This document shows, piece after piece, positions 34,365 to 41,793 of a DNA stretch of 64,000 bases; position 1 is the stretch's first letter; each line of letters opens with the position of its first letter. Source of the stretch: Thermoplasmata archaeon (GTDB lineage Archaea; Thermoplasmatota; Thermoplasmata; Lutacidiplasmatales; UBA184); NCBI GenBank assembly GCA_021828195.1, contig JAKASQ010000001.1, positions 419,202 through 483,201 on the forward strand. The letters are read 5' to 3'. The notes under the pieces were generated by a model that was not told the origin of the DNA, did not search any database, and was given only the letters and a program-made list of their open reading frames with translations. Position numbers and translations under genes: made by a program.

Positions 34365-34659
34365 GGCTTCCTACTTCTGAGCAAACCGGGGCTCTTCGGC
34401 ACCGGACGACGCCCTCCCGCATTTGAAGCTTGAGCCCGAGTGGTCGGCCTGCGTGGGCCGCCTTCCGGCGAACGAATCGGTCCGTACCCCTCCGGCGCGA
34501 CCCGCGGGCCCCCACCGCGAGACGGTTATACACGCAGCAAACGGAGAAGTTGCCTGTTCGACCGGGCGTGTACATCGTTTGACACGTCAGAGACCGCGCG
34601 ATCGGACGTAGTGGGCTCGTTACTGACGCAGAGTGCGGCGTATGTTTAAGTAGCTGAAA

Positions 34660-35181
34660 ATGTGTTCATTTGGCGCAGTCGTGTTCGACAACGCTTCAAA
34701 GCGGGGAAACGGTCGCTCTCGCGAGCGGACGCCTCCCCCGAAGGAACCGGAGGAAGCGCGCATCGCCCTACGGTGCAACCGCAAGGAGCTCGAGCTGCTC
34801 GACTCGTTCGTCGCGGACGGCGAGTTCAAGAGTCGCTCGGAGCTCATGCGCGGGGCGCTGCACGCCTTCCTTCGCGCCCGAGCGCTGTCGGCCGCACCGA
34901 CCCCCCGCGTGGATTCGGAGGGCCTCATGGAGGTCCCCGTCCGCCTGCGCCCCGAAGAGGTAGCGACCTGGGAAGCATACGCCAAGACCATCGCCAATGG
35001 CCGACCTGTGGCGGATCTCCTAGCCGAGGCCGTCCGCCACTACGAGCACAAGCACGAACTGGTCGACCTCGCGAAGCACGGGCGGGAGCGGGTTCGAGAC
35101 GCCGTGGACAGCCGAGCTCAGGTGCATGCGCTCGGCGAGAGCGGCCGCGACCTTGAACGGAAAGGGATGGTCGGTCGGTAA
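34660..35181 (+). CDS. Tandem ribbon-helix-helix (CopG/CdrS-like) DNA-binding protein
   Basis: First RHH EARIALRCNRKELELLDSFVADGEFKSRSELMRGALHAFLRAR; second RHH-like MEVPVRLRPEEVATWEAYAKTIANGRPVADLLAEAVRHYE; start may be GTG 34681. Confidence 0.75.
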   Translation: MCSFGAVVFDNASKRGNGRSRERTPPPKEPEEARIALRCNRKELELLDSFVADGEFKSRSELMRGALHAFLRARALSAAPTPRVDSEGLMEVPVRLRPEEVATWEAYAKTIANGRPVADLLAEAVRHYEHKHELVDLAKHGRERVRDAVDSRAQVHALGESGRDLERKGMVGR

Positions 35182-35220
35182 GACGCGGTCAGCGGGGTTC
35201 GAGCGCGATGCGGAACAGGG

Positions 35221-36138
35221 GTGGGGGCGACGTACGAGACGGAGCAGCGAGCAATCGACGAGCATAACCCGGCGCTGGGGAACGGCGCCGTGGACACGAG
35301 CGATGGTCCGGAGGGCTGGCGGTTGGGCCACGACATCCGGTTCGTCCTGGTCGCGGTCGGCGGGGGCGGAGTTCGGATCGGGCGTGAGGTCGCCCGACGC
35401 CGGATCCGGCACCTGGAGACCGTCGCCATCAATTGCGATCCCAAGGTCCAAGGGTTCGACGAGTTCGACCGTCGGATCTATCTAGGTCCGGAAACCGGTG
35501 AAGAGATCGACACGGGAGGTTCGGCGTTCATCGGCGGCGTCCTCGCGCGCGCGGCGGAGCCCGCGCTCGAACGCCTGTTCGATGGCGCGACGTTCGTGGT
35601 GATCCTCGGCAGCCTCGGAGGTGGTGCCGGGAGCGGGGCGCTCCCCCACGTTCTCGAGGTCGCCAGCCGACACGGGCACCTCGTCAGCACGTTCGTCGTC
35701 AAGCCGTTCCGCTGCGAGGGCGAGCGCCGGGCGCTCGCCGAGCGCGCGGTCGGTCGTCTCCAGATGGTCCAGTCGTTCGTGGAGAAGCAGAACCGCGGAC
35801 GCGCGACCCTCAAGGTCCTGGACAATGAGTCGCTCGTCCGCACCTTCGGGCCCGTCGCGTTCACCAAGGTCGCCGGTTACTGGGCCGACGTGGTCTCCGA
35901 ACACATCCAGTCCTCGATCATTGGTGAATTCGAATCCGCGATCACCGCGAACTGGACGTCGTCGGCCGTGGTGCCCTCCGAGCTCTCGAGCCCCCTGGTC
36001 CGTTCGACCGACCCGACCCCGTCCGGGGTGACCCCTCCGTCGCTCCCCAGCCCCCTTCCCGCGGCGGACGCGACGCCTCTCGAGGCCGGCCTCACGATCG
36101 AGATCGTCACCGAGATGCGTCCGCGGGAGCTCCGCTAG
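35221..36138 (+). CDS. Divergent FtsZ/tubulin-superfamily protein lacking the C-terminal domain
   Basis: FVLVAVGGGGVRIGREV..VAINCDPK..VVILGSLGGGAGSGALPHVLEVAS (degenerate GGGTGTG), then FtsZ-like ATLKVLDNESL; ends after a putative H7 helix. Confidence 0.75.
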   Translation: MGATYETEQRAIDEHNPALGNGAVDTSDGPEGWRLGHDIRFVLVAVGGGGVRIGREVARRRIRHLETVAINCDPKVQGFDEFDRRIYLGPETGEEIDTGGSAFIGGVLARAAEPALERLFDGATFVVILGSLGGGAGSGALPHVLEVASRHGHLVSTFVVKPFRCEGERRALAERAVGRLQMVQSFVEKQNRGRATLKVLDNESLVRTFGPVAFTKVAGYWADVVSEHIQSSIIGEFESAITANWTSSAVVPSELSSPLVRSTDPTPSGVTPPSLPSPLPAADATPLEAGLTIEIVTEMRPRELR

Positions 36139-36228
36139 GGTACTCCACCGCTCCGCACGGTCGCCGGGCGGTCGACACCCCGGCCGGCGACCACAACCTT
36201 ATAATCGGCACGGCATCGAAGTCGCGCG

Positions 36229-36402
36229 ATGGACGGCAAGCTCCTGACCCTCATCCTGCTCATCGTCGTGCCCGCCGCCCTCATCGGGGTGACGATCGCC
36301 TACTTCGGCTCGAACCCGCTATCGATCGTCGGACTGTTCGTCGTGATGATCGCGGGATCGTTCTACCTGCTCTCCTACACCGAGGCGTTCGTCTCGGAGT
36401 AG
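36229..36402 (+). CDS. 57-aa two-TM membrane peptide (not in ORF track)
   Basis: Manual translation MDGKLLTLILLIVVPAALIGVTIAYFGSNPLSIVGLFVVMIAGSFYLLSYTEAFVSE*; TATA-like CTTATAATC centred 27 nt upstream. Confidence 0.75.
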   Translation: MDGKLLTLILLIVVPAALIGVTIAYFGSNPLSIVGLFVVMIAGSFYLLSYTEAFVSE

Positions 36403-36409
36403 TTCGCCC

Positions 36410-37183
36410 CTACCGGTACATCTCCGGCGATATCGGAGGCTTCGTTCCCTCTTCGCCTTGGCCCGCGTGTCCCTTCATCGCCGCGCGCAACGCCTTCTCG
36501 ATCCCCTCGGCCTGCGCCCGGAGCGGCCCCGTGTCGATGTGGATCTCCGGGAGGATCCGGTCGACCGCTTCGATCAGTGTCGCTCCCGCTCGATGGTCCG
36601 GGTACCCCTCACCCGCGCGGGCACTGACCAGTAGCACCGCGACCGGCAGCGGGCCCCCGATCCCCTGGACCAGGAGCGAGCCCGATACGCCTCCGATGAT
36701 CCCCTCTTCGAGTGGAAGCACGCCGCTGGGCGCGAACGCGCCCAGGACGCCCGCATCGGCCCGCGAGATCGCAGCCCAGACCGTCTCCTCCGGTGGTTCG
36801 GTATCGTCGTCGGCATCGCCCTCCGGGTGCGGGATGACCCCCTCGAGGCCGAGGATCCAACGGGCCTTCCGCTCCGTGGCACCCTCCATGATCGTGGTGG
36901 CGAGTGCGGTGGCTTGAGACGGGGTGGGCGGAAACTCCGAGACGACGACGGCGAAGTCCTTGCGCCCGTACACACGGATCGGGGGATGGACCTGTCCGCC
37001 CTGTACGACCGCGATCGGCATCATATCCGGAGCTTCGAAGCGGCCGATCCGAGGAAGCTTGAGGGTGCGGATCATGTACAGCGCCGCGACCGTGGTCGCG
37101 AGTCCCGCGCTCGGGAAGCAGGAGATCACCACGGCTCCTGGCTGGAGCGGGGAGTTCGATTCGTCGGTCCAGCGGAAGACCAT
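36410..37183 (-). CDS. PAC2 family (proteasome assembly chaperone-like) protein
   Basis: AVVISCFPSAGLATTVAALYMIRTLKLPRIGRFEAPDMMPIAVVQGGQVHPPIRVYG..FPPTPSQATALATTIME; start at MVFRWTDE. Confidence 0.82.
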   Translation of the reverse strand: MVFRWTDESNSPLQPGAVVISCFPSAGLATTVAALYMIRTLKLPRIGRFEAPDMMPIAVVQGGQVHPPIRVYGRKDFAVVVSEFPPTPSQATALATTIMEGATERKARWILGLEGVIPHPEGDADDDTEPPEETVWAAISRADAGVLGAFAPSGVLPLEEGIIGGVSGSLLVQGIGGPLPVAVLLVSARAGEGYPDHRAGATLIEAVDRILPEIHIDTGPLRAQAEGIEKALRAAMKGHAGQGEEGTKPPISPEMYR

Positions 37184-37262
37184 GGAGAACCTCGGCTCCC
37201 GCCAGCGACCGCAGGGATTTAGACTCGACTCCTGCCGCCCAGGGCCGAGCCGCCCTGGGCCG

Positions 37263-39302
37263 CTACCAGATTGCGACGCGACGATCGTCCGGGCGGCGCA
37301 TCGGCGCGCCCGGGGCGACCCCGAAGGCGCCCCAGAACTCCGGGAGGTTCGAGACGGGTCCGATGGCACGGAACCGACCGGGGGAGTGGGGATCGATGGT
37401 GAGACGCCGGCGGAGCTCCGCCTCGCGCACGTTCGAGCGCCAGATCTGGGCGTAGGAGATGAAGAACCGCTGGACCGGAGTCAGGCCGTCGATCTTCACA
37501 TCGGGGGTGCGGCCGTCGGCGATGCGTCGTTGCAGGGCCTCGTAGGCGATGCCCACCCCTCCGAGGTCGGCGATGTTCTCCCCGGCGGTCAGCTCTCCGT
37601 TGACGTGGGTGCCCGGAAGGGGCTCGAACTCACCGTACTGGTCGATGATCCGCTGGGCCCGGTGCTGGAACTCGGCCGAGTCCGCGGCATCCCACCAATC
37701 CCGCATGTTCCCGTCGGCGTCGTACTTGCGACCCTGGTCGTCGTAGCCGTGCGTAATCTCGTGCCCGATCACCACTCCGATGCCTCCGTAGTTCACGGCA
37801 TCGTCCATCGCCGGATCGAAGAACGGGGGCTGGAGGATGCCGGCCGGGAAGACGATCTCGTTGAGCGTGGGATCGAAGTAGGCGTTGACGGTCGGCGGCG
37901 TCATCTGCCACTCGCTCCGGTCCACCGGCATGCCCACCCGCACGATCATCCGCTGGATCTCGAAGGCCGCGGCGCGCCGGATGTTTCCCAGATAGTCCCG
38001 GCGGGAGATCCGCACGCGGGAGTAATCCCGGAAGCGCTCGGGGTGGCCGATCTTCGTGGTGAACCGATCGAACTTGACGCGGGCGCGTCGGCGGGTCTCT
38101 TCGGTCATCCAGGGGACGCGTTCGAGTCGCTGGCGGAACACCTCCCGCAGGTCCTTCACGAGTTCGGCCATCCGCTGCCGTGCGGCGGGCGGGAAGTACC
38201 GTTGCACGTAGATCCTGCCGAGCGCCTCGCCGAGGCCCTCGTCGACCACCATCGCCGCTCTTTTCCAGTCGGGCTCGGGTCGTTCTTGGCCGAGGAGGCG
38301 ACGGTGGAAGAAGTCGAAGTCCTCGGCATCCACGGCCGCGTGCAGGTGCGGCGCGCTCGCGTGCAGGAGGCGCCAGCGGAGGTAGACCTTCCACTCGGCG
38401 ATGGAGTGGGTGCGCAGGGCCCGGTGCACCGCATCAAAGAACTCCGGCTGACCGACCACCAGATACGGCGCCTTGCCTGCGCCGCGCATGGTCAGGTACT
38501 CCTTCCACCGAAGCGACGGGTTTCGTCCGATGAGCTCCTGCGGGGTCGTCCGGTTGTAGTTCCTCTCCGGATCCCGAAGTGCGCTGCGCGACCGGCTCGC
38601 TTTCGCAAGCTCGGTCTCGATGCGGAGAACCGTACGGGCAGCGGCCGTGGCACGGGCCCTGGGCTCCCCCCACAGGCCGAACGATTTCGAGATGTGGGCG
38701 AGGTAGGCTCGCCGCACGGGGACGAACTCCCTCTTGAGGTAATAGTCGCGATCCGGGAGCGAGAGGCCCCCCTGCATGAGATAGAGCGCGTAGATCGAAC
38801 TGTTCTTCTCGTCGGGCGCGACGGCGGTACGGAAGAGTCCGGGGATCCCTTGGCGGTGGAGTTCCGCGAGCGCGGATACGAGGTCGCGCGTCGAGGAAAT
38901 GGCCCGGATCCGCTCGCTCTCGCGTGCGATCGGTCGGAATGCGAGCTTCTCCCGTTGAGCGGCGTCCATCGCGGAGGCGAAGAAGTCGCCGACCTGCGTG
39001 CGCGGCGTGGGGGCCGATCCCCGTCGCCCGCTCGACGCCTGCTCCAGGATCCCGCGAACCTGTTGGAGGTTCCGCTCGAACAGTTCGTCGAATGCGCTCC
39101 ACCGGGACTTGTCCGCGGGCACGGGGTTCCGATCGAGCCACTGTCCGGTGGCGAACCGGTAGAAGTCCTTGGACGGGTCCGCCGACCGGTCCATGTAGTC
39201 CGCGGAAAATCGGGGCACCCGATCATGGGGCGGAGCGGAAGTCGGGGACGAACGTTCCGGCGCTCGGGGCGGGACCGCCGTTGGGGGCGTGCGGGTGGCC
39301 AT
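37263..39302 (-). CDS. pepO: M13 family (neprilysin/PepO-like) zinc metallopeptidase
   Basis: VNAYFDPTLNEIVFPAGILQPPFFD..GVVIGHEITHGYDDQGRKYDADGN..NGELTAGENIADLGGV. Confidence 0.95.
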   Translation of the reverse strand: MATRTPPTAVPPRAPERSSPTSAPPHDRVPRFSADYMDRSADPSKDFYRFATGQWLDRNPVPADKSRWSAFDELFERNLQQVRGILEQASSGRRGSAPTPRTQVGDFFASAMDAAQREKLAFRPIARESERIRAISSTRDLVSALAELHRQGIPGLFRTAVAPDEKNSSIYALYLMQGGLSLPDRDYYLKREFVPVRRAYLAHISKSFGLWGEPRARATAAARTVLRIETELAKASRSRSALRDPERNYNRTTPQELIGRNPSLRWKEYLTMRGAGKAPYLVVGQPEFFDAVHRALRTHSIAEWKVYLRWRLLHASAPHLHAAVDAEDFDFFHRRLLGQERPEPDWKRAAMVVDEGLGEALGRIYVQRYFPPAARQRMAELVKDLREVFRQRLERVPWMTEETRRRARVKFDRFTTKIGHPERFRDYSRVRISRRDYLGNIRRAAAFEIQRMIVRVGMPVDRSEWQMTPPTVNAYFDPTLNEIVFPAGILQPPFFDPAMDDAVNYGGIGVVIGHEITHGYDDQGRKYDADGNMRDWWDAADSAEFQHRAQRIIDQYGEFEPLPGTHVNGELTAGENIADLGGVGIAYEALQRRIADGRTPDVKIDGLTPVQRFFISYAQIWRSNVREAELRRRLTIDPHSPGRFRAIGPVSNLPEFWGAFGVAPGAPMRRPDDRRVAIW

Positions 39303-39430: not shown

Positions 39431-40474
39431 GTGGGGCTCCCGTTCAAGGATATTGTTCAAGCCGAGCAGCTCCCGTGGAGCGCGCTCGCGGGCCGAACGG
39501 TCGCGGTGGATGGCTACAACGCGATCTACCAGTTCCTCGCGACCGTGCGCCAGGCGGACGGCGAGCCGTTCTCCGACGCCCGCGGCCGGCCCACGAGCCA
39601 CCTCATGGGTGTTTTCTACCGGACGACCGCGTTGCTGGGAGAGGGCGTCCGTCCCGTGTGGGTGTTCGATGGTCGACCCCCGGACCTGAAGGCCGGGACA
39701 CTGCGGTCGCGGTTCCGCGCCAAGGAACGGGCCGAGGAGCAGCGCCAGGAGGCCCTCGCCGCCGGCGATCTACAGACCGCTCGACGCAAGGCCGCTCAGA
39801 CCTCACGCCTTACCCCCACCATGGCCGAAGAAGCGATCGATCTGCTCGGTTCGCTCGGCATCCCGACGGTCCGGGCCCCGAGCGAGGGCGAGGCTCAGGC
39901 GGCGCGGATGGCGGCCACCGGGGTGGTCTGGGCCTCCGCCTCCGAGGACTACGACAGTCTCCTGTTCGGTGCGCCTCGGCTCGTCCGGGGGCTCGCCGCG
40001 CGTCGCTCCAAGGGGGTCGACGCCGGCGCCCAGTTGATCGACCGGGACCGGCTACTGCTGACGCTGGGAATCGATGGTGACGAACTGATCCTGGTTGGCC
40101 TCATCGTGGGCACGGACTTCAACGAAGGCGCCACAGGCTACGGTCCGAAGAAGGCCCTAAAGCTCGTCCAGGAGCACCTCGGGTGGGAAGCGACGCTCGC
40201 CCGCGTCGGGATCGATCCGAAGGAAGGGGCAGACGTGGGCGAGATCTTCCGCCATCCCGACACCGTCGATATCCCCGTGCCCGAGTTCCGGCCGATCGAT
40301 GACGCGGCCGTCCTCCGCCGGTTGGTGGACGATCACGGCTTCTCGGAGGAACGCGTCCGCTCCGCGATCGACCGTGCGCGGCGCGGCCTTCGCATCGCAC
40401 CGCGACCGATCCCTGCGGCGACGGCCCGAGGGCGCCAGACGATGCTCGATGGATTTGGCGGAGCCGAACCATGA
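39431..40474 (+). CDS. fen: Flap endonuclease 1
   Basis: VAVDGYNAIYQFL, PVWVFDGRPPDLK, APSEGEAQAARMA, ASEDYDSLLFG, GTDFNEGATGYGPKKALKLVQEH; PIP-like QTMLDGFG at C-terminus; GTG start. Confidence 0.94.
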   Translation: MGLPFKDIVQAEQLPWSALAGRTVAVDGYNAIYQFLATVRQADGEPFSDARGRPTSHLMGVFYRTTALLGEGVRPVWVFDGRPPDLKAGTLRSRFRAKERAEEQRQEALAAGDLQTARRKAAQTSRLTPTMAEEAIDLLGSLGIPTVRAPSEGEAQAARMAATGVVWASASEDYDSLLFGAPRLVRGLAARRSKGVDAGAQLIDRDRLLLTLGIDGDELILVGLIVGTDFNEGATGYGPKKALKLVQEHLGWEATLARVGIDPKEGADVGEIFRHPDTVDIPVPEFRPIDDAAVLRRLVDDHGFSEERVRSAIDRARRGLRIAPRPIPAATARGRQTMLDGFGGAEP

Positions 40475-40563
40475 CGATGTCGGCGAGCGCAAGCCCCCCT
40501 ACTTGTTGGTGGGTTAGCGAGCCACTTATGCGATCCGGTACAGTACGGCCACCGCTACCCTCG

Positions 40564-41793
40564 ATGTATCAGCCCTGCAAGTACCGCCTCTACCCGTTTC
40601 CGAATCAGGAGAGGGAACTCCTCCGTCAGCTGGAGGAGTTGCGGTTCCTGTGGAAGTACGCCCTCGAACGACGGCAGGAGGCATGGCGCAAGGAGAAGCG
40701 TTCGATCTCGTATGTGGGCCAGTGTCGGGACCTCGCCCGATGGAGAGCCTACGACAAGGAGGGCATCGGGCGCGTCTACGGCCACGTGGCGCAGGAGACC
40801 CTCGCCCGACTCGGTGACGCCTTCGGGCACTTCTTCCGGTGGGTGAAAGAGGGCGGACGGCCCGGGTTCCCGCGCTTCAAGCGCGAGGTCACATCGCTCT
40901 GCTACCCGGACTCCAACGGCTCGGCGGCCATCGTTCCGGGCCGCAACGGGACCCGGCGACTTCGGCTATCGATGATCGGAGAGATCCCCATCAAAGTCCA
41001 TCGCGCTCCCCCCGAGGGCCGGGTCAAGACCTGTACCATCCAGCGGGAGGGTGATCGTTGGTTCGCCGTGCTCACCTTGGAGGTCCCGGACCCATCTCTC
41101 CCACCGGCCACGCCGCCCGTCTCCCCGGTCGGGGTGGACCTCGGTCTCTCCCACCTCGCCACCCTCTCGACCGGAGAGGTGGTGGATCCCCCGAAGTTCC
41201 TGCGACGGGCCGAGGACCGCCTCACTCGCGCCCAGCGGGTCGTCTCCCGGAGAAAGAGGGGTTCGCACAATCGGGAGAAGGCGAAGGTGCGGCTCGCCCG
41301 ATGTCACGCGAAGGTGCGAGACCAGCGGCGGGACGTTGCTCACAAGCTCACGACGGGGTGGGCGAAGTCCCACGACCTGATCGCCTTCGAGGACATGGAC
41401 CTGCGCAGCCACATGGAGGGGGCCTTCCCGAAGTCCACCGCCGATGCCGGATGGGGGATGCTCCGACAGATGTCCCAGTACAAGGAGGCCCGGCGCTCCG
41501 GGAGATACGTGGAAGTTCCCACGAAGAACACGACGCAGAGCTGCTCGGCCTGTGGCCGTCTCCACGACCCTCCGCTCACGCTCCCGGACCGCACGTATGA
41601 GTGTCGGTGCGGCCTCGTAATGGATCGAGACCTGAACGCGGCGAGGAACGTCCTCGCGCGCGCTCTTCGGGCAGTACCCGGGGGCACCGGGGAATCCACG
41701 CCTGTGGAGACGGGACCTCCACCGCACCGCAAGGGGCGGCGAGTCCGGTCGAGGAGGCAGGAACCGCCACGGGGCACGGGGGTAGCAACTTGA
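40564..41793 (+). CDS. tnpB: TnpB RNA-guided nuclease
   Basis: RuvC-I GVDLGLSHLATLSTG, RuvC-II IAFEDMDL, zinc finger CSACG..CRCG, RuvC-III MDRDLNAARNVL; all three catalytic acidic residues present; alternative upstream start at 40471. Confidence 0.93.
   Translation: MYQPCKYRLYPFPNQERELLRQLEELRFLWKYALERRQEAWRKEKRSISYVGQCRDLARWRAYDKEGIGRVYGHVAQETLARLGDAFGHFFRWVKEGGRPGFPRFKREVTSLCYPDSNGSAAIVPGRNGTRRLRLSMIGEIPIKVHRAPPEGRVKTCTIQREGDRWFAVLTLEVPDPSLPPATPPVSPVGVDLGLSHLATLSTGEVVDPPKFLRRAEDRLTRAQRVVSRRKRGSHNREKAKVRLARCHAKVRDQRRDVAHKLTTGWAKSHDLIAFEDMDLRSHMEGAFPKSTADAGWGMLRQMSQYKEARRSGRYVEVPTKNTTQSCSACGRLHDPPLTLPDRTYECRCGLVMDRDLNAARNVLARALRAVPGGTGESTPVETGPPPHRKGRRVRSRRQEPPRGTGVAT

Follow-up and report, generated by a model that had tools for sequence, protein, structure and literature searches.

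An RHH (ribbon-helix-helix) gene paired with an FtsZ gene is already known from the haloarchaeal cdrS-ftsZ2 operon (PMC7439475), and an FtsZ-like protein without the C-terminal domain is already known as FtsZl1 (PMC2875224). In the parts of the reports that were accessible, the RHH protein CdrS is co-transcribed with ftsZ2, acts as a regulator of division genes and has binding sites upstream of ftsZ1 (PMC7439475, PMC8406309), and the CdrS ChIP-Seq sites presented there exclude the cdrS-ftsZ2 promoter. FtsZl1 consists of an FtsZ-like N-terminal domain, without a recognisable FtsZ C-terminal domain, to which a coiled coil and a helical domain are added, and in FtsZl2 mixed alpha/beta structure follows for about 300 aa (PMC2875224). 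When the superfamily was reviewed, all characterised FtsZ/tubulin proteins were filament formers (PMC2875224). Another set of non-canonical archaeal FtsZ-like proteins, some of them from Thermoplasmata, forms the clade described together with Culexarchaeia (PMC9723716); the portion of that paper available to us mentions neither truncation nor an RHH partner, and the comparison is by description only.

The locus studied here lies in a 64,000-nucleotide stretch of DNA from a Thermoplasmata archaeon, the whole of which is called the window. A tandem-RHH gene, rhhB, directly precedes the gene of a short FtsZ that ends after helix H7 (Table 1). As in cdrS-ftsZ2, an RHH gene and, directly 3' of it, an FtsZ-family gene share one operon. 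CdrS is small, whereas the RHH protein here is tandem; FtsZ2 is full-length, whereas the partner here is half an FtsZ; and the candidate binding sites are found in the operon's own promoter. From FtsZl1 and FtsZl2, short FtsZ differs in having only a brief disordered tail and an RHH gene as its neighbour. In a literature search that reached few subscription papers, no earlier description of a tandem-RHH gene with an FtsZ lacking the C-terminal domain was found.

Table 1. Features of the rhhB/short-FtsZ locus, its surroundings and the second tandem-RHH gene of the genome (window positions unless a contig is given)
Feature	Coordinates	Strand	Remarks
GGTTATAC element	34524..34531	+	at -157; may be a distal promoter element of TATA type
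GTTCGACC	34556..34563	+	at -125; degenerate operator-like site
GTTTGACA	34577..34584	+	at -104; operator-like site inside TTTGACACGTCAG
TATA box TTTAAGTA	34645..34652	+	at -36
rhhB	34681..35181	+	tandem RHH protein, 166 aa from GTG (most likely start)
GTTCGACA	34683..34690	+	operator-like site that overlaps the start codon of rhhB; GTGTTCGAC identical in 49/49 relatives
Short FtsZ	35221..36138	+	305 aa; N-terminal GTPase domain through H7, without T7 loop or C-terminal domain
T4 signature GGGAGSG	35617..35637	+	residues 133-139; translation and alignment
H7-like helix	35827..35967	+	residues 203-249; AlphaFold model; end of FtsZ resemblance
Tail	35968..36135	+	disordered, Pro/Ser-rich, conserved terminal peptide; alignment and model
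TATA-like box TTATAA	36200..36205		24-29 nt before the ATG of the membrane peptide
Membrane peptide	36229..36402	+	57 aa; neighbour of rhhB/short FtsZ
PAC2-like gene	36410..37369	-	convergent with the operon
TnpB/OrfB-like transposon protein	40471..41793	+	CxxC zinc-ribbon-like end; translation read
Type A tandem-RHH gene (L003)	G000:C2:317466-317942	-	both units score above the RHH_1 cut-off; overlaps the FtsZ3 start or abuts it

The tandem-RHH protein and its promoter

The three open reading frames given in the first-pass annotation (34660-35181, 35221-36138 and 36229-36402) are present. The first had been taken as a 173-aa protein from ATG 34660. GTG 34681 is most likely the start, because the nine bases that begin there, GTGTTCGAC, are identical in 49/49 relatives, while most later codons vary, and because a TATA box is located 36 nt upstream. 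A 41-sequence alignment and an AlphaFold model place RHH unit 1 at approximately residues 27-65 and unit 2 at 83-127, followed by a long C-terminal helix. Unit 1 scores over the Pfam RHH_1 cut-off (26.3 bits against 20.5); unit 2 of the window's protein is below every Pfam cut-off, and Foldseek with the model of the RHH monomer gave no significant match. The CdrS model NF058555, built for the haloarchaeal protein, gives 18.3 bits against its cut-off of 100.

Repeated GTNNGACA sites are common to promoters of the RHH/short-FtsZ pair. In an unbiased scan of all XX..XXXX patterns over 88 non-redundant promoters from nine families, GT..GACA ranked first, ahead of a TATA-type pattern, and occurred in 85/88 promoters against 7.6 expected. 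Every family except f29 has 1.75-3.9 sites per promoter, compared with about 0.1 expected; f29 is the weakest, with 0.67 sites per promoter and 1/3 promoters. The variant depends on the family: GTTCGACA in f1, mostly GTCSGACA in f8, mostly GTAGGACA in f9, and mostly GTATGACA in the remaining ones. Near -103, where the window has GTTTGACA, the consensus of its relatives is TTGTTCGACACGTCAG, and GGTTATA is found at -155 to -158 in most of them. The GT..GACA sites are placed around the TATA box or overlap with the start codon, positions which are typical of repressors, and upstream copies are often helically spaced. Since the repeated GTNNGACA is the top promoter motif, the tandem-RHH protein is probably an autoregulator of its operon.

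Another regulator could bind this motif instead, because similar sites precede ftsZ1 and the RHH-A/FtsZ3 operon described below. Those before ftsZ1 are present in 14/14 genomes as GTATGACG/GTCTGACA, unlike GTTCGACA of the rhhB operon. In the ftsZ1 promoters of the window's group (L001 and L257-L269), GAGCGTATGACGCTCGTCTGACAAAC or a close variant is located between the TATA box and the start in 14/14 genomes. CdrS is tied to division control, and sites of the same general type before ftsZ1 in the window's group recall the binding of CdrS upstream of ftsZ1 in Haloferax (PMC8406309). A wider regulon was also sought with the exact 11-mer of group f1, TTCGACACGTC, and this candidate was rejected. 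The other matches read in the window's group appear inside coding frames, so that the 11-mer looks specific to the rhhB operon.

An FtsZ that ends after H7

FtsZ requires the T7 loop and the C-terminal domain for GTP hydrolysis and head-to-tail polymerisation, and the T7 residues complete GTP hydrolysis in the next FtsZ subunit. Short FtsZ shares with canonical FtsZ the N-terminal GTPase domain, the T1-T6 loops and H7. Its closest PDB relatives are FtsZ, by sequence and by fold. The Pfam Tubulin match (54.8 bits, cut-off 33) is restricted to residues 42-180, and the NCBIfam ftsZ model, with a cut-off of 295 bits, scores 79.7. The AlphaFold model, computed from a 53-sequence alignment, has pLDDT above 95 in the core and above 90 nearly throughout residues 41-240. 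The secondary-structure elements of the FtsZ GTPase domain are there, strands as well as helices; a 47-residue helix occupies the H7 position, and the chain beyond it is disordered. The tubulin-superfamily fold suspected in the first-pass annotation is thus predicted, with a Foldseek value of 6e-13 against FtsZ. The similarity had been thought to stop before H7; with an H7-like helix in the model, only the later part is missing.

What follows H7 in FtsZ was looked for in several ways. The model ends after H7 without a T7 loop (NxD..D/E), as had been supposed, and the T7 motif is present in 0/30 short FtsZs checked. FtsZ_C (PF12327) has no match in the window, while three other genes of the same genome match. 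The length after T4 is 123-182 aa in short FtsZs, compared with 224-243 in full-length FtsZs outside f8. The GID motif for SepF at the C-terminus of archaeal FtsZ (PMC8178401) has no counterpart at the end of short FtsZ as read from the alignment, where the conserved terminal peptide is VELTFEV in the consensus of relatives and AGLTIEI in the window. Pfam, AlphaFold and PF12327 therefore uphold the original description of the locus as an RHH gene followed by a C-terminally truncated FtsZ without T7 loop.

A frameshift near 35.95-36.14 kb, or an assembly error, was also considered as something that might hide a normal C-terminal domain. It is ruled out because more than 100 relatives from many species terminate at this same point and the window contains no PF12327 match. 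It is also contradicted by dN/dS of 0.016-0.042 in the core, which indicates strong purifying selection; the tail, at about 0.4, is much less constrained.

In an alignment of 27 short FtsZs from six families, all of which stop after H7, the invariant positions are GG of T1, N of T2, GG..G.G of T4, PF..E of T5 and N of T6, and these constitute the FtsZ nucleotide pocket. Short FtsZ is therefore expected to bind GTP. Most members of the family have GGG[AST]G[ST]G at T4, and the view of GGGAGSG as a catalytically degraded signature was overstated, the other nucleotide-binding residues being invariant. Judged from these alignments, the part that has been lost is the T7 donor side, and the nucleotide-binding residues are kept.

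Obligate pairing in the class Thermoplasmata

Among loci for which enough upstream sequence was available, the RHH gene directly precedes short FtsZ in all of those from the window's group (50/50), and a tandem-RHH gene takes the same place in 58/58 others, which come from 53 genomes and nine families of the class. The seeds of the profile for the latter survey were confined to f1, f9 and f29, so that the other families test the pairing independently. Many genomes of the window's group, a group whose public records include Candidatus Lutacidiplasma silvani, have relatives that share 35-98% identity. When a short-FtsZ profile was searched over 203 genomes, each at least 90% complete, short open frames were found in f1, f5, f8, f9, f22, f29, f30, f32 and f33, all belonging to Thermoplasmata. 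The protein is near-universal in some families (about 41/45 genomes of f8 and 11/11 of f29). A phylum-level search of 118 genomes yielded no short FtsZ from beyond the class, where all matches were of full-length type. Genomes tested from f8, f22, f29, f30 and f32 carry mcrA, and thus we take these genomes to be probably Methanomassiliicoccales. In several methanogens (L147, L148, L154 and L156), an ATP-NAD-kinase-like gene with INPIAGMGG or INPVAGMGG lies 3' of short FtsZ. The f19 genomes G062, G072, G089, G123 and G135 (99% complete) gave zero matches to the short-FtsZ profile, which elsewhere detects full-length FtsZ too.

In a maximum-likelihood tree of N-terminal domains, 32 short FtsZs from six families are split from 22 full-length FtsZs with 96/96 support, the branch to the window's group being long (2.47), which could distort the topology; f5, f30 and f33 have short FtsZs in addition to those of the six families. 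Because the short FtsZs form one clade, a single origin of the pair is the simplest reading. As far as the surveyed genomes indicate, rhhB and short FtsZ make up an obligate two-gene module inherited class-wide in Thermoplasmata. The locus had been regarded as a derived version of the cdrS-ftsZ2 module. The similarity in arrangement stands; a class-wide module is not a local derivative, and its RHH protein is tandem and falls below the CdrS cut-off.

The genome of the window also encodes two FtsZs whose T7 motifs are normal (L001 and L002), which were found on counting its canonical ftsZ genes, and a divergent full-length FtsZ3 (L003) behind another tandem-RHH gene, type A. RHH-A/FtsZ3 is a closer counterpart of cdrS-ftsZ2 than the rhhB/short-FtsZ pair. 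RHH-A/FtsZ pairs like L003 are present in other families.

The membrane peptide downstream of short FtsZ had been listed along with the two genes. Having its own TATA-like box and being seen only in the window's group, where it was found by pattern in 30/54 related loci, it is probably a separate gene outside the class-wide module. A gene similar to the PAC2-like one adjoins several of the relatives.

Possible functions of the pair

The reading we prefer, which has about an even chance of being right, is that short FtsZ is a regulatory protein which binds GTP, does not polymerise and has its dose controlled by an RHH autoregulator; that the RHH protein binds DNA, that short FtsZ binds GTP and forms no polymer, and the identity of its partner are all inferred from sequences and models. 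The tandem-RHH protein would bind the repeated GTNNGACA sites and repress its own operon, and this autorepression would keep the amount of short FtsZ tightly set. Short FtsZ would bind GTP and act as a regulatory partner rather than as a filament subunit, while its tail would hold the protein near its partners. The likeliest of these, direct or indirect, would be the obligate RHH neighbour. In genomes that also have full-length FtsZ, the window's among them, the nucleotide face of short FtsZ might in addition meet the T7 face of an FtsZ subunit, limiting filaments. A precedent is haloarchaeal CdrS. We also propose, tentatively and with clearly less confidence, that this tubulin-superfamily GTP-binder, no longer a filament subunit, is a GTP-dependent partner of the tandem-RHH regulator which many families of the class have kept, even where no canonical FtsZ was found.

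Short FtsZ may instead be a dedicated poison of FtsZ filaments or a cap, the latter as the first-pass annotation suggested: in the GTP-bound form it would accept the T7 face of full-length FtsZ and, its own T7 face missing, block further addition. A complete nucleotide face combined with loss of T7 and the C-terminal domain fits this idea, and the window's genome, with two normal-T7 FtsZs plus FtsZ3, offers filaments on which capping is possible. The methanogen family f8 argues against it as a general explanation. FtsZ_C has no match in 19 f8 genomes, among which several are single contigs with 98-99% completeness (by HMM, which a very divergent protein could escape), yet the RHH/short-FtsZ pair is retained. 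In addition to short FtsZ, most f8 genomes encode a single full-length FtsZ-like protein, which is very divergent and in which no T7 motif can be recognised. In six genomes (G044, G189, G197, G225, G277 and G303) no second tubulin-family gene was found. If the absence in f8 holds, capping of canonical FtsZ cannot be the only role of short FtsZ, and we regard a dedicated cap as unlikely. The divergent FtsZ-like protein (L198, L199, L204 and L208) is apparently the sole other tubulin-family gene where it occurs. SepF was not found in several f8 genomes, including G044 and G189, where short FtsZ stands alone; ESCRT (PF03357) gave no match, and a control showed that model to be insensitive.

It is rather improbable that the pair is a domesticated type II toxin-antitoxin-like system, in which short FtsZ would be a division poison and the RHH protein would both neutralise it and repress the operon. 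The RHH gene comes first, the spacing is short and candidate sites are present at the promoter, all in keeping with such an origin. Toxin-antitoxin loci are mobile and have a patchy distribution, whereas this pair clusters vertically and is near-universal in whole families, and no known toxin fold is present in the product of its second gene. Slightly less probable still is DNA positioning in the manner of TubZRC, a plasmid-borne system with a wHTH adaptor, TubR, and a polymerising TubZ. Here the RHH protein on the repeated upstream sites would serve as the centromere complex, and the tubulin-like GTPase would move or position it. The sites are indeed repeated and often helically spaced, and a DNA-binding protein occurs together with a tubulin-family NTPase; but the adaptor is of the RHH type, the location is chromosomal (a 799-kb contig), the sites are few per locus, and short FtsZ, without T7 or C-terminal domain, does not have the parts for a filament motor. 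Functionless decay of an FtsZ paralogue, which the truncation and the drifting tail might suggest, is refuted by the selection on the core, the invariance of the GTP-site residues across six families and the obligate pairing with the RHH gene.

A conserved and selected FtsZ without C-terminal domain, always paired with an RHH gene, would mean that the fold also serves outside filaments. Since GTNNGACA is common to the operon and related forms are found at the ftsZ1 and RHH-A/FtsZ3 promoters, an archaeal division regulon becomes testable. FtsZ surveys that count the N-terminal domain may overstate FtsZ-based division in f8, because FtsZ_C is found in 0/19 genomes of this family, whose clearest FtsZ match is the short protein. 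If short FtsZ is indeed a GTP-dependent partner of the tandem-RHH regulator that is kept without canonical FtsZ, some methanogens would divide, or regulate division, without any polymerising FtsZ.
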